Below, piece by piece: positions 2,120 to 21,264 of a DNA stretch of 64,000 nucleotides. Under the pieces are notes generated by a model. It saw nothing but the letters and a program-made list of their open reading frames with translations, did no database searches and was not told where the DNA came from. The DNA is from Iodidimonas nitroreducens (GTDB taxonomy: Bacteria > Pseudomonadota > Alphaproteobacteria > Sphingomonadales > Rhodothalassiaceae). Numbering within the stretch: the stretch's first letter is position 1; each line of letters opens with the position of its first letter. Both the position numbers and the translations under genes were made by a program. The stretch covers positions 1 to 64,000 of the forward strand of contig BAYV01000013.1 of the NCBI GenBank assembly GCA_000710935.1, given 5' to 3'.

Positions 2120-4987
2120 CTATTCAGCCGCCGATCGATCCACTTTGAGCAGTGCCTTTAAATAGGCGCCGGTGTGGCTGGCTTCCACCTCGGCCACGGC
2201 CTCGGGCGTGCCTGCGGCCACCAGCTTGCCGCCGCCATCGCCGCCTTCAGGCCCCATATCGATCAGCCAATCAGCGGATTTGATGATCTCCAGATTATGT
2301 TCGATCACCACCACACTATTGCCCTGATCCACCAGCGCCTGCAACACTTCGAGCAATTTGCGGACATCTTCGAAATGGAGGCCGGTCGTGGGCTCATCCA
2401 GAATATACAGCGTTTTGCCGGTGGCGCGTTTCGATAGTTCCTTTGCCAGCTTCACTCGCTGTGCTTCGCCCCCTGAAAGGGTGGTGGCCGCTTGCCCCAC
2501 CCGCACATAACCAAGGCCAACCCGTTCGAGCATCAGCATTTTGTCTCGAATGGCGGGCACGGCCTTGAAAAAATCTGCCGCCATTTCAACGGTCATATCC
2601 AGAATGTCGGCGATGGAGCGATCTTTGAAGCGGATTTCCAGCGTCTCGCGATTATAGCGTTTTCCCTTGCACTGATCGCAGGTGACATACATATCGGGCA
2701 GGAAATGCATTTCGATCTTCAAAACCCCATCGCCCTGACAGGCCTCGCACCGCCCACCCTTGACATTGAAGGAAAAGCGCCCCGCTTTGTAGCCCCGCAT
2801 CTGGGCTTCCGGCAGCCCGGCAAACCATTCGCGGATGGGGGTGAAGGCGCCGGTATAGGTGGCGGGGTTCGATCGCGGCGTGCGGCCAATGGGGCTTTGA
2901 TCGATATCGACGATTTTATCGAGATGCTGCAGGCCCTTGATGCTGTCATGGGCGCCGGGCTGGAGCCGGGCATGATTGAGATGCCTCGCCACGGCTTTAT
3001 AAAGCGTTTCGATGGTGAGAGTTGATTTGCCTGAGCCGGAAACCCCGGTGATGCAACACAGGGTGCCAAGAGGCAGGCTCACATCCACGGATTTCAGATT
3101 ATTCGCCCGCGCGCCTTTGATGATGAGTGATTTGCCATTGCCCTTGCGCCGTTTTTCGGGGATCGGAATGGCTTTACGGCCGGATAAATAGGCTCCGGTG
3201 AGGGACTGTTCGGCGGCCATGATATCTGCCGGGGTGCCGCTGGCGCACACTGTGCCCCCATGCTCACCCGCGCCCGGCCCCATATCGATCACATAATCGG
3301 CGCTGAGGATGGCATCTTCATCATGTTCCACCACGATCACCGTATTACCCATATCGCGCAGATTGCGCAGGGTTTGCAGCAGTCGATTATTATCGCGCTG
3401 ATGCAGGCCGATAGAGGGTTCATCAAGGACATATAAAACCCCGGTCAGCCCCGAGCCGATTTGCGAGGCCAGCCGGATGCGCTGGCTTTCCCCCCCCGAC
3501 AAGGTGCCCGATGCCCGCGCCAGGGTCAGATATTGCAGTCCCACATTTTTCAAAAAGCCCAGCCGTTCGATGATTTCTTTTAAAATCTTCTCGGCGATGG
3601 TGGCGTGTTTCGCGCTCAGGCTTTGGGGCAGGGCGGAAAACCAATCATAAGCGGCGGTGATGCCAAGGGATGTCACCTCGCTGATATGATGCCCGGCAAT
3701 CTTCACCGCCAAAGCTTCGGGCTTCAGCCGGTGGCCCATACAGCTTTTGCACAAGACGCTCGATTGATAGCGGCTCAATTCCTCGCGCATCCAGGCGCTA
3801 TCGGTTTCCCGCCAGCGCCGTTCGATATTTTTCAAAACCCCTTCAAAAGGCTTGTTGGTTTGAAAGCGCCGCCGGCCATCGGCAAATTCAATGGCGATGT
3901 TCTCGGTGCCCGAGCCATAAAGGATGAGGGATTTTTGGGCATCCGTCAGCTGATCCCAGCGGCTGCGCATGGTAAATCCGGCATGGCGGGCCAGGGCTTC
4001 CAGGGTTTGTTTATAATAGGGCGCGGTGGATTTTGCCCAGGGTGCCACGGCCCCATCGGCCAGTGTCAGCGCGGGATCGGGCACGATCAGTTCGGGATCA
4101 AAGCGCAATTCCAGACCCAGCCCATCGCAAACCGGGCAGGCGCCATGGGGGCTGTTGAAGCTGAACAGCCGTGGCTCGATTTCGGCAATCGTAAAGCCCG
4201 AAACGGGGCAGGCAAAGCGGGCGGAAAAGGTGATCCGCTCTGGCTCGCCTTCCGGTTCATCGCCATCGCGATAGGCATATTCGGCAAAAGCCAGACCATC
4301 GGCGAGGTCCAAGGCGGTTTCAAAGCTATCGGCCAAGCGGGTTTCAAGGCCATCGCGCACTACGATGCGATCCACCACCACATCGATATCATGCTTATAT
4401 TTCTTATCAAGGACGGGGGCATCGGCGATATCATAAAAGTTGCCATCCACCTTCAGACGCTGGAACCCACGCTTTTGCAGATCTTTATATTCTTTTTTAT
4501 ATTCACCTTTGCGACCGCGCACGATAGGCGCCAAAAGATAAAGCCGGGTGCCTTCGGGCAGAGCCATCACCCGATCCACCATTTCCGAGATGGTTTGGGC
4601 GGCAATCGGCTCGCCGGTGGTGGGGGAATAGGGGATGCCTACCCGCGCCCATAAAAGCCGCATATAATCGTAGATTTCCGTAACGGTGCCGACGGTGGAA
4701 CGCGGATTTTTCGATGTTGTTTTCTGCTCGATGGAAATGGCTGGTGATAAGCCCTCGATATGATCGACATCTGGCTTTTGCATCAATTCCAGAAATTGCC
4801 GGGCATAGGCCGAAAGGCTTTCCACATAGCGGCGCTGGCCTTCGGCATAAATGGTATCAAAGGCAAGGCTGGATTTGCCCGATCCCGATAGCCCGGTGAT
4901 CACCGTGAGGCGATCACGCGGAATATCCACATCCACGGATTTCAGATTGTGCTCACGGGCACCGCGAACGGACAGCATTTTCAGCAT
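2120..4987 (-). CDS. uvrA: Excinuclease ABC subunit A
   Basis: UvrA is the damage-sensing ATPase of nucleotide excision repair and loads UvrB onto distorted DNA. Two ABC modules are visible: Walker [10 protein letters not shown] near the N terminus and GVSGSGKST in the second half, with signatures [12 protein letters not shown] and [12 protein letters not shown]. Zinc-binding cysteine pairs occur as CPVC...C and CEAC...CDQC. The frame stays open up to a TTG at 5017, but the ATG at 4987 (protein [16 protein letters not shown]) matches the usual UvrA start, giving about 955 residues. The upstream desaturase gene ends only about 30 bp away on the same strand, so co-transcription is possible. Confidence 0.97.
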
Positions 4988-17921: not shown

Positions 17922-17936
17922 TGGCACGATCATTGC
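17922..17936 (+). promoter_or_regulatory. Sigma-54 (-24/-12) promoter of the flgK-flgL unit
   Basis: TGGCACGATCATTGC matches the RpoN consensus TGGCAC-N5-TTGC at every fixed position, with 10 nt between the GG and GC dinucleotides as required. Transcription would start near 17948, giving a leader before the small ORF at 17979 and flgK. Class-specific control of hook-associated protein genes by sigma-54 is known in several alphaproteobacteria. Confidence 0.85.
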
Positions 17937-17978
17937 TTCTACTTGGCTGTCATGATGCAGTCGCAAAGGTCGTGAGCG

Positions 17979-18134
17979 ATGATCGAGCAGAGAAAAACCA
18001 TTAGAATTGATGCCTTTGGCCGGGATTTAGGGCCATCGGGCCTTGCTGGTGATCGGCAAGCCCGGTTCGGCAGAACTTGCCGTGCTCATATCCAAAATCT
18101 GGCTGCATCCCTTTTGGTGCGGAGGGTTGGCTGA
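17979..18134 (+). CDS. Small ORF (51 aa) translationally coupled to flgK
   Basis: This short frame, MIEQRKTIRIDAFGRDLG at its start, lies just downstream of the sigma-54 promoter and ends at TGATG, where its stop shares one base with the flgK start codon. AAAGG lies about 9 nt before its ATG. The peptide is basic and Arg-rich with no membrane segment. It may be a real small protein, or a leader whose translation opens the flgK ribosome-binding site. I do not recognise the sequence; it is too short to judge by codon use alone. Confidence 0.45.
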   Translation: MIEQRKTIRIDAFGRDLGPSGLAGDRQARFGRTCRAHIQNLAASLLVRRVG

Positions 18135-20290
18135 TGTCTTTGGGGGCCATTGTTTCGTCATCCTTGAGCGGCTTGTTTGCAAGCCAGGAAGCCCTGCGGG
18201 TAACCGGCACCAATATCGCCAATGTCAATACCCCCAATTATGCGCGGGAGCGGGTGACCGTTGCCGCCGATATTCAAAATGATCGCTCGGTTGGGGTAGA
18301 GGTCGAGGCTATCGAGCGGGTGGTCAATCGCTTTTTGGAAACCGCAAGTTTGGGGGCGCGATCTGATACCGGGCGGACGGAAGCCATCAATACAATTCAT
18401 GATCGCCTGCAATCTTCTTTGGGGCGGCCGGATTCAGCGAATACGCTCACCGGGCGGATGAACGCGGTATTTGCGGCCTTGGGCGATCTGGCGCAGGCCC
18501 CTGCCGACACCGTGGTGCGCCAGCAATTCCTGTCAGAATTACAAGGTTATAGCGGCGAAATTTCGCGGATTTCAGATACGATCCAAAGCCTGCGCGAGGA
18601 TGCCAGCATCGAGATTGAATCGCGGATGGGCGCCATCAATGATGCAATCCGTCAGGTGCATGAGCTTAATCAGCAGATTGCCCAACAAAAGTCATTCGGG
18701 GGGCAAACCGGCGGGCTGGAGAATGTCCGGCAATCCGCCCTGGATGTGATTGCGGAAAATATCGATATCCGAACCATTGAAAACAGTGATGGATCGGTGG
18801 ATGTGAGCACCACCACCGGGGCCCAATTGATTAACAGGGCCAGCTTTTTCCAGCTTGATTATACCAATCCCGGCGGGGTGAGCGCGGCCAGCACCTTTCC
18901 GCCGATCACCTTGCAATTTTATGATCAGCGCCTGGGGGAATTGTCTGGCCCCACGCGACCAATCAATGGCGATATTCGCTCAGGCGCTTTGCGCGGGCTG
19001 ATGGATATGCGTGATGGGCAGCTTGTGGATTTATCCGTCTCTTTGGGCGAATTGGGGGCGCGTGTTGCCGATGAGTTGAATGCCATCCACAATCAAAACA
19101 GCCCCATTCCCGGGCCCAACAGCCTGACCGGTAAAACCACGCCTTTCAATGGCACGGACCCCCATAATTTTACTGGCGAGACCACCTTTGCCATTGTGGA
19201 TGCGCAAAACCGTGTCGTTGCGACCACGACCTATGATTTTGGTGCCAATCCCAATGCCAGCATCAATGATGTGCTGACTGCGGTGAATGGCCCTTTGCCT
19301 ACTGGCCTTGGCGGGGCGGGCGGGGCGGGCACATTGAGCTTCACCAATGGGGTGATGAGCCTGACGGCCACGGCACCCGGCAATGGCGTTGTTATCACCG
19401 AAGATCCCGCAACAGCCAGCGACCGGGGCGGGCGATCCTTTTCGCATTTTTTTGGCATGAACGATCTGATCGAAGCACGCTCGTCGGGCCTGTTTGAAAC
19501 CGGCGTGCAGACCACCGATGCCCATCCCTTCACGCCGGGGGAAACGGCTGAATTTGTGATCACCGATCGCTTTGGCAAGGAAATCCGCAGTTTTGAATTA
19601 TCGATCCCGCCCGCGACCACGCCTCCCGCCGCAGCCGTCAGCTATGGGGATCTGGTTGCCCAATTAAATACCGGCCTCAATGGGGTGATGAGCTTCAGCC
19701 TCGATGGCAATGGCCGCCTTGTTACCCAGCCGGCACCGGGGCAAAGCGGGCTGGTGCTATCGGTGCGCAATGATGGAACCGATGCATCGGGCAATGGGAT
19801 TTCGATTGCTGAAATGTTTGGCATTGGCAGCCGCTTTCGGGCCGAAGCCGCAACAGATATGCAGCTTGTGGGGGGGCTGGATGGCAATGCGGGCAATCTG
19901 GCCACCGCGCGTTTTGATCTTTCGGCGGCGGTGGGCGCAGTCGCGCTGGCGGTGGGGGATCAAAGCGGGGTTCTGGATTTTCAAAAGCTGGAAACATCCA
20001 TTATCTCAACCGACAAGGCTGGCGAGATTTCAGCCCAGAAGCGCACCTTAACAAGCTTTAATGGCGCGGTGCTGGGCACCTTTGGCCTGATGGCGGATCG
20101 CGCCGCCACCGCTGCCGAAGATACCGCCAATCTGGAAACAGAGCTGGATCAGCGCCGACAGGCGGTTTCGGGCGTGAATATCGATGAAGAGCTATCAAAT
20201 CTGATCATCTACCAGAATTCATATAATGCCGCTGCACGCATTTTGTCTTCGGTACAGGAACTTTATGACTCACTGCTCAATGCCGTTTAA
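18134..20290 (+). CDS. flgK: Flagellar hook-associated protein 1
   Basis: FlgK joins the hook to the filament. The 718-residue protein has the conserved N-terminal rod/hook helix (LFASQEALRVTGTNIANVNTPNYARERV) and the C-terminal helix (VNIDEELSNLIIYQNSYNAAARIL) that pack in the tubular core. The central variable region is Gly/Ala/Thr-rich. The start is the ATG at 18134, preceded by GGAGGG at 7 nt; an upstream in-frame ATG at 18077 would add residues unlike the family. Transcription is from the sigma-54 promoter at 17922. flgL follows after 29 bp. Confidence 0.95.
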   Translation: MSLGAIVSSSLSGLFASQEALRVTGTNIANVNTPNYARERVTVAADIQNDRSVGVEVEAIERVVNRFLETASLGARSDTGRTEAINTIHDRLQSSLGRPDSANTLTGRMNAVFAALGDLAQAPADTVVRQQFLSELQGYSGEISRISDTIQSLREDASIEIESRMGAINDAIRQVHELNQQIAQQKSFGGQTGGLENVRQSALDVIAENIDIRTIENSDGSVDVSTTTGAQLINRASFFQLDYTNPGGVSAASTFPPITLQFYDQRLGELSGPTRPINGDIRSGALRGLMDMRDGQLVDLSVSLGELGARVADELNAIHNQNSPIPGPNSLTGKTTPFNGTDPHNFTGETTFAIVDAQNRVVATTTYDFGANPNASINDVLTAVNGPLPTGLGGAGGAGTLSFTNGVMSLTATAPGNGVVITEDPATASDRGGRSFSHFFGMNDLIEARSSGLFETGVQTTDAHPFTPGETAEFVITDRFGKEIRSFELSIPPATTPPAAAVSYGDLVAQLNTGLNGVMSFSLDGNGRLVTQPAPGQSGLVLSVRNDGTDASGNGISIAEMFGIGSRFRAEAATDMQLVGGLDGNAGNLATARFDLSAAVGAVALAVGDQSGVLDFQKLETSIISTDKAGEISAQKRTLTSFNGAVLGTFGLMADRAATAAEDTANLETELDQRRQAVSGVNIDEELSNLIIYQNSYNAAARILSSVQELYDSLLNAV

Positions 20291-20319: not shown

Positions 20320-21264
20320 ATGGAACGGATTTCGAGTTTCGGCCAATCCACGGTTTTGCTGCAAAATACGATGCGCAATCAGCAGCGTCAGTTCATTGCC
20401 CAGCAGCAGATTTCCAGCGGGAAAAAGGCCAATGATTTTCAAAGTCTGGGGCCGCAAATTCAGGAGGCGCTCAGCGCCCGGCAGGCCCGCGATGGGGTGA
20501 ACAGCTTTCGCGATACCATCAGCAGCGTTAAGCTTTCGGTGGATGTTTTTGATATTCAGCTCACATCCATTGTGGATTCGGCACGCGGGCTGAAAGAGAC
20601 TGTGCTCGATGCCATCAGCCAGGATGATGCCAGCGGCTTCATGCCCTTTCTCGAACAAAGCTTTGGGCTGATCACCGCAGCGCTCAATAGTCAGGTGAAT
20701 GGGCAATATCTGTTTGCCGGGGCGCGCACGGATCAACCGCCGATCACGGTCGGCAGCCTTGCCGAACTGGAAGCGCTGGCCACCCCACAAGATGCCTTTG
20801 GCAATGATCAGATGAAAAAACAGGCCATCGTCGCCGAGGGTGTGCAGGTTGAATTCGGCATTCTGGCAGACGAAGTGGCCGATGAAATCATGGCCTCGAT
20901 GAAGCGATTGGCCGAGTTCAATACGCTCAGCCCCCTTGATGGTACCCTGAAAGATGGCGATCCTGGGCCACCGCCCATCCCCGATCAGCGCGAATTTCTC
21001 ATCGCGGAACTTGAGAAGATCGAAAGTGCCGTGCAGAAGGCGCAATCGGCCCAGACCAACAATGCCCTTGTGGGCAATCGCCTTGATAGCATCGATGAGC
21101 AACATGCCACGGCGCAGATTTTTCTGGAAGGACTGGTTTCGGATATCGAAGATGTCGATCTCGCCGAAGCCATCACCCGGCTTAATCAGGATCAAACCGC
21201 TCTCCAAGCCTCCTTTCAGGTGCTGGGCAGCCTGTCCCGGTTGAGCTTGTTGAATTTCTTGTAA
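20320..21264 (+). CDS. flgL: Flagellar hook-associated protein 3
   Basis: FlgL is the second hook-filament junction protein. The 314-residue protein has the flagellin-type N-terminal helix (QQRQFIAQQQISSGKKANDF) and a matching C-terminal helix ending LGSLSRLSLLNFL. The central LNSQVNGQYLFAGARTDQPP is the usual FlgL signature. The ATG follows TAGGAGAG. It is the second gene of the flgK unit. About 150 bp separate it from the DUF2336 gene, so it is unclear whether transcription continues. Confidence 0.94.
   Translation: MERISSFGQSTVLLQNTMRNQQRQFIAQQQISSGKKANDFQSLGPQIQEALSARQARDGVNSFRDTISSVKLSVDVFDIQLTSIVDSARGLKETVLDAISQDDASGFMPFLEQSFGLITAALNSQVNGQYLFAGARTDQPPITVGSLAELEALATPQDAFGNDQMKKQAIVAEGVQVEFGILADEVADEIMASMKRLAEFNTLSPLDGTLKDGDPGPPPIPDQREFLIAELEKIESAVQKAQSAQTNNALVGNRLDSIDEQHATAQIFLEGLVSDIEDVDLAEAITRLNQDQTALQASFQVLGSLSRLSLLNFL

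Follow-up and report, generated by a model that had tools for sequence, protein, structure and literature searches.

In Caulobacter, flaN and flbG have sigma-54 promoters with downstream ftr2 and ftr3 (title cited in PMC3096577). This arrangement resembles the flgK locus of Iodidimonas nitroreducens in combining a sigma-54 promoter, FlbD and dyads downstream of the promoter. It differs in that flaN and flbG are divergent, whereas flgK in the window is not divergent from hook genes, and the title, on which the comparison draws, does not mention a leader frame. The Caulobacter flaN gene is probably flgK, judging from a Caulobacteraceae genome (G710) in which about 2.7 kb separate flgK from a hook/rod-type frame that diverges from it. 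In Vibrio cholerae, the flagellar regulator FlrC and its site differ from FlbD and the FlbD site. FlrC sites are typically found downstream of the start site and are still true enhancers (PMC6504787), so that the likeness consists of an enhancer within the transcribed region; the relevant passage of that paper, unlike the locus described here, has no leader frame. In the open literature library searched, no report of flgK leader peptides, of frames upstream of flgK or of small proteins near it was found. One study reports 94 new Caulobacter CDSs, some of them apparently leader peptides (PMC4117421), and a Caulobacter flgK leader frame is possibly already among them.

The window, i.e., the whole stretch of 64,000 nt analysed here, is part of a 148-kb contig in a genome of 3.08 Mb, and the features described below lie on its forward strand (+). 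The flgK gene (18134..20290, 718 aa) matches TIGR02492 with 244.5 bits (cut-off 170.75), and its ATG at 18134 is backed by an N-terminus that is conserved in relatives. Downstream follow a gene for a flgL-like hook-associated protein (20320..21264; Flagellin_C 36.1 bits, cut-off 23), which reaches 101.8 bits against TIGR02550, under the cut-off of 127.2, and a DUF2336 gene. An in-frame TTG at 18077 would lengthen flgK to 737 codons (18077-18133 extra), and gene callers favouring long frames could mis-start flgK at this position, masking part of the small frame discussed below. A second flagellar gene set (L133, G000:C106; names by eye) contains a 487-codon FlgK-type frame; TGGCAY-N5-TTGC was not found in the 10 kb inspected there, and a second FlbT-family match occurs on the same contig.

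The predicted sigma-54 promoter core of flgK, TGGCACGATCATTGC (17922..17936), carries the GG of the -24 and the GC of the -12 element and agrees with TGGCAC-N5-TTGC at all fixed bases. It is the only perfect site in the window, which holds nine more with one mismatch (shuffles predict 8.2 sites when a single mismatch is tolerated). Genome-wide, TGGCAY-N5-TTGC has 57 matches and the backwards pattern one; long frames enclose several of the matches among 16 stretches inspected, and the motif is thus weak on its own. The assignment is supported by conservation across 73 flgK loci, all of which have a sigma-54 candidate at -118 to -353 from flgK: 30 are perfect, 38 have one mismatch and 5 have two, i.e., 68/73 with at most one and 73/73 with at most two. 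The genome also has an rpoN gene. Transcription is predicted to start about 11 nt past the GC of the -12 element, near 17947, and the leader counted from this point would measure about 187 nt. Both the perfect promoter and a leader of 186 bp had been given in the preliminary description of this DNA.

Between promoter and flgK lies a frame of 51 codons (17979..18134), beginning with ATG at 17979 and ending with TGA at 18132-18134. It is preceded at a spacing of 9 nt by a Shine-Dalgarno-like site of its own, AAAGG (17965..17969; anti-SD duplex -5.4 kcal/mol). Because flgK starts with ATG at 18134-18136, the junction reads TGATG (18132-18136), stop and start having position 18134 in common, and the frame thus has the overlapping stop of a coupled frame. 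Frame, ribosome site and junction all agree with the earlier account. The Shine-Dalgarno site of flgK, GGAGG (18121..18125; anti-SD duplex -10.0), lies within the small frame; since flgK has this strong site, coupling is plausible but not required. The small frame is not in frame with flgK, and an N-terminal extension of FlgK was therefore rejected in the window. A 7-codon mini-frame (ATG ATG CAG TCG CAA AGG TCG TGA, 17952..17975) stops 3 nt before the ATG of the small frame and may be an extended ribosome site, nothing more. Taken by itself, the window gives no support for a gene, since 18% of dinucleotide shuffles of its leader also contain a frame of such length that extends to flgK (P 0.18).

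In close relatives, breakage of the frame by stops or indels had been proposed as evidence against it. Within the genus no such breakage was found: all three species have the frame, with start context and phase to flgK retained. The TGATG junction, which had been expected to be preserved, is not constant: the last base of the stop is at +1 in the window species, and in G002 and G001 it falls at +10 and +4, respectively. The distance from frame start to flgK is likewise variable, being 155 nt in the window and 131 and 119 nt in the other two species (113 nt with the second ATG of G001). The sister species G002 has an unchanged copy of a promoter-proximal block, ATGCAGTCGCAAAGG, although its leader has diverged elsewhere; this block (window species and G002) and the dyad described below are the most visible conserved DNA in the leaders of the genus. 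Three other members of the family have flgK. One (G003) has a frame of 61 codons, and no convincing frame was seen in the other two (G004, G006), which have the promoter and leaders of 93-94 nt.

The comparison across the order builds on searches with the flgK N-terminus, which gave matches in 49/60 relatives and in 220/396 genomes of the order. From the two flgK searches 90 upstream regions were taken (30 + 60 loci). The 73 loci compared comprise L030 of family f6 and 72 loci from outside that family; they come from 72 genomes, L088 being the second flgK of G062, and the leaders of L017 and L018 are identical. The frame statistics omit 17 f6 loci (L073-L087, L089, L090), and L030 was kept for its perfect promoter. 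Sixteen of these 17 have no sigma-54 site with one mismatch or less (1 one-mismatch site, 2 loci with two-mismatch sites only, 14 with none), while L030, likewise f6, has a perfect one upstream of flgK; control of flgK seems to have changed inside this family. L067, which contains N bases, was left out of the counts over 72 leaders (frames, dyads, open stretches), and tests of open stretches (120 or 140 nt) cover the loci with a leader at least as long as the stretch. The frame called at each locus is the longest that starts past the predicted transcription start and ends at or after -20 relative to flgK.

Of 72 leaders, 67 contain a frame of 30 codons or more that runs to flgK, where shuffles predict 22.8 and the antisense strand gives 21. 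When ATG is the only start allowed, 64/72 leaders have such a frame, compared with 12.2 in shuffles and 11 for antisense. Before L067 was dropped, the total was 68 of 73 loci, the frame being absent in L004, L005, L052, L053 and L060. A per-locus shuffle P of 0.1 or less was obtained for 47/73 loci when ATG, GTG and TTG were allowed (antisense 11/73; 45/72 and 9 in a second run), and for 55/72 with ATG only (antisense 8). Combined as medians of 28 genera, the three-start values give a Fisher probability of 1.4e-9 (antisense 0.95), and ATG starts give 18/28 genera against 1 antisense (Fisher 1.1e-10 against 1), although these values overstate independence because the genera are related. At 61/69 loci a sense frame stays open throughout the 120 nt preceding flgK (31.9 expected, 39 antisense), whereas 120 nt upstream of the promoter, taken as a control, are open at 35/72 (34.0 expected). 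The antisense strand also exceeds the shuffles, with 39 vs. 31.9 over 120 nt and 32 vs. 21.4 over 140 nt.

Pairing with the anti-SD is stronger at the first in-frame ATG, with a mean of -3.1 over 64 leaders, than at the 115 out-of-frame ATGs of these leaders, which average -1.6 (p 4e-5). Called frames begin with TTG or GTG in 28 of 68 cases. At these 68 loci the frames end between -18 and +22, with 53 at +1 or beyond (ends before -20 are barred by the search rule), and by our own reading the conserved first codons of flgK give early out-of-frame stops. The position of the stop is thus partly forced by both and does not constitute independent evidence of coupling. Among the loci with no frame, L004, L005 and L052 have short leaders, as does L053 under a nearer promoter candidate; L060 has a long one. 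An argument from these leader lengths is suggestive, though length itself confounds it.

In the Caulobacterales the excess is weaker. The sample comprised 50 loci, mostly best matches, of 116 genomes with a match, and 48 could be used, L288 and L301 having no promoter candidate. With ATG only, 26/48 loci in 15 genera give a Fisher probability of 3.7e-4, and with all three starts 10/48 give 0.011. Several Caulobacterales have the promoter and dyad-like sites and no frame (e.g., L272-L274, L299, L300, L303). Among 25 loci inspected of at least 80 named, 17 have a promoter with at most one mismatch; these include members of the Minwuiaceae, Sneathiellales and Rhodospirillaceae with frames of 50-66 codons. 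Elsewhere in the genome of the window species, a perfect sigma-54 site precedes flbT (L143, G000:C64; site 3198-3212 minus, FlbT match 2647-3018 minus). A frame of 133 codons (MLKINEERLRADGK...) begins in this flbT leader and extends deep into flbT in another phase; it is possibly a second leader frame of the genome.

Within the frame lies a dyad, CGGCAGAACTTGCCG (18068..18082), adjoined by a degenerate half-site-like stretch, CGGCAAGCCCGGTT (18054..18067; recognized by reading the sequence). The strict form of the dyad, GGCA-N5-TGCC, is present in 50/72 leaders, compared with a mean of 0.29 and a maximum of 3 in shuffles, and a relaxed form in 59/72; upstream controls of the same length have it in 5/72. 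Its median position is 55 nt before flgK, and among 65 half-site pairs separated by no more than 20, five-base spacing is found in 52. Of the 59 loci that have both a relaxed dyad and a frame, 56 carry the dyad within the frame, where it occurs in each of the three codon phases (6, 28, 22). The dyad is therefore a DNA element, and a peptide-coding motif was ruled out. In the genome of the window species, two further sigma-54 promoters of flagellar genes have the same dyad on their upstream side, its end being 86 and 74 nt away from the promoter core; the frames behind these promoters are fliK- and flgF-like by eye, the fliK-like one having no NCBIfam match. No such dyad occurs near the sigma-54 site before flbT. 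A FlbD gene is present (NF050807, 808 bits, cut-off 750), among frames read by eye as fliF, flhA and flhF. Given the promoter-linked dyads, the FlbD and RpoN genes and the precedents for downstream enhancers, the dyad at 18068-18082 is most likely an FlbD (ftr) enhancer inside the transcript. Leaders of family f8 (L049, L050, L061, L069) carry an A/T-centred second dyad (GGGAAAATTTTCCC) directly before the GGCAAGCGTTGCC-type dyad; the centres are about 18 nt apart, which resembles a paired binding site, and paired sites were seen by eye in Caulobacteraceae leaders as well.

A candidate enhancer in the leader would place the promoter far from flgK. The small frame had been offered as the explanation for the 186-bp leader, which holds by half: the frame is there, but so is the conserved dyad, which as a probable enhancer would alone account for the distance between promoter and gene.

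Whether the frame encodes a peptide under selection was judged from codon substitution. In the window genus the peptide is not recognisably conserved across the three species, and dN/dS is 0.93 in the frame and 0.44 and 1.72 in the other two frames, values that are nearly saturated; the synonymous-biased change that had been anticipated is thus missing from this genus. Eighteen pairs of leaders were compared, of which 17 could be evaluated, L022/L045 being saturated. The called frame has the lowest dN/dS in 8 of the 17 (L034/L035, L035/L037, L034/L037, L020/L045, L020/L022, L013/L045, L056/L068, L057/L072), and not in L021/L023, L019/L041, L067/L068, L056/L067, L057/L066, L050/L064, L050/L049, L001/L002 and L051/L054. 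The three pairs among L034, L035 and L037 have a dN/dS of 0.19-0.32 in the frame, compared with 0.52-1.49 when the alternative frames are read. L021 and L023, a close pair from one Kordiimonadaceae genus with them, have a dN/dS of 2.83, with 1 synonymous and 11 non-synonymous changes, and speak against coding.

The family f5, to which these loci would belong, is read here as the Kordiimonadaceae. In seven of ten gapless leaders inspected from this family, the third codon position is the most variable, with an entropy of 1.06 against 0.75 and 0.80 for the other two (p 0.004 by permutation), and nine leaders give a third-position excess with p 0.019. The signal is driven by a block of nine codons, ARSLYRG[QR]K (QRSFYRAQK in L013), with entropies of 0.16, 0.24 and 1.28 by codon position (p 5e-5 for a block picked post hoc). 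Outside this block and the dyad it is not significant (p 0.12). In the Kordiimonadaceae dyad, GCAATTGCT, third positions are identical too in 6/7 sequences, whereas they are free in the ARSLYRG block. With one ARSLYRG-type peptide as query, related peptides were recovered at E<=0.0125 from 7 of the 19 genomes in the genus, the query's own among them, and each lies directly upstream of flgK. Peptides from different families bear no resemblance by eye, and a known family was rejected for them: NCBIfam gave no match at E 1 for six leader peptides, nor did Pfam for the peptide of the window at E 0.001. On the codon evidence, the peptide is likely to have a real function in one Kordiimonadaceae subclade, and the tests in other clades lend no support to one. 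The unannotated small flagellar protein of the preliminary description accordingly finds support in that subclade and none in the window genus, where neither dN/dS nor conservation favours it.

These observations agree best with a translated leader frame that is coupled to flgK and overlies an FlbD enhancer within the gene's transcript, a reading to which we give a probability of about 0.52. The promoter, the frame, the dyad and the conservation of all three are seen directly in the sequences, from which translation, coupling and FlbD binding are inferred. If the frame encoded a functional small protein of the flagellum, e.g., an export or chaperone partner of FlgK produced from the flgK transcript, this would explain the variable third positions of the Kordiimonadaceae leaders, the almost purely third-position variation of their ARSLYRG[QR]K block, the low dN/dS among L034, L035 and L037 and the recurrence of related peptides upstream of flgK in one genus. 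The codon signal does not extend beyond block and dyad, however, L021/L023 points the opposite way, the peptide varies within the window genus, those of other families look unalike, and profile libraries do not recognize them, which makes such a protein rather improbable in the window species. The frame may also be an untranslated product of chance in a leader that serves the FlbD enhancer alone: the enhancer by itself accounts for the spacing, the single-locus P of 0.18 is unremarkable, G004, G006 and several Caulobacterales have the promoter and lack the frame, and codon tests fail in most clades. We consider this rather improbable in view of the surplus of sense frames across the order, for which the antisense and upstream controls stay close to expectation, the better ribosome sites of the in-frame ATGs, and the phase and start context shared by three members of the genus.

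In Caulobacter, FlbT acts on a flagellin 5' UTR, and the genome of the window species has two FlbT-family matches over the cut-off. Control of flgK by a cis-acting RNA leader, i.e., an attenuator, a riboswitch or an FlbT-bound 5' UTR, is nonetheless very unlikely. The window leader has no Rfam match at E 5 and folds no better than average (z -0.15), on which grounds an attenuator or riboswitch was rejected, and the alternative hairpins, terminator or unusual RNA stability of an attenuator-type leader peptide were not found. The genome has no CsrA match, and a CsrA-controlled leader was discarded. Furthermore, the dyad also lies upstream of two flagellar promoters, in DNA that they do not transcribe. 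A last proposal is that enhancer-spanning leader frames form an order-wide class: the FlbD enhancers being inside flgK transcripts, the bacteria would keep the enhancer's RNA copy under translation, and in some lineages an ARSLYRGxK-type peptide would have come to act as a sensor or small protein tying FlgK synthesis to flagellar assembly; this is more speculative, and we regard it as quite doubtful.

Under the preferred reading, a translated and coupled leader frame over an FlbD enhancer, sigma-54 RNA polymerase would start the flgK transcript near 17947, and FlbD would act as enhancer from the dyad (18068-18082), which lies about 147 nt beyond the promoter core. With the enhancer inside the transcription unit, the mRNA would carry a leader of about 187 nt. 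Ribosomes would initiate at the ATG at 17979, pass the RNA copy of the enhancer and stop at the TGA (18132-18134), which adjoins the flgK ribosome site and overlaps the start codon, where they may re-initiate or aid initiation at flgK. Selection in most lineages would then act on the leader being translated up to flgK and not on the sequence of the peptide. The gain from leader translation may be ribosome cover against Rho or RNases, together with a coupled supply of ribosomes; the protective role in particular is conjectural.

If this reading is true, many alphaproteobacteria would have a short overlooked frame as a standard component of their flgK gene, and the locus would illustrate how an enhancer placed within a transcription unit may be handled by the cell. 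It also bears on whether translation of the leader tunes the supply of the hook-junction protein.
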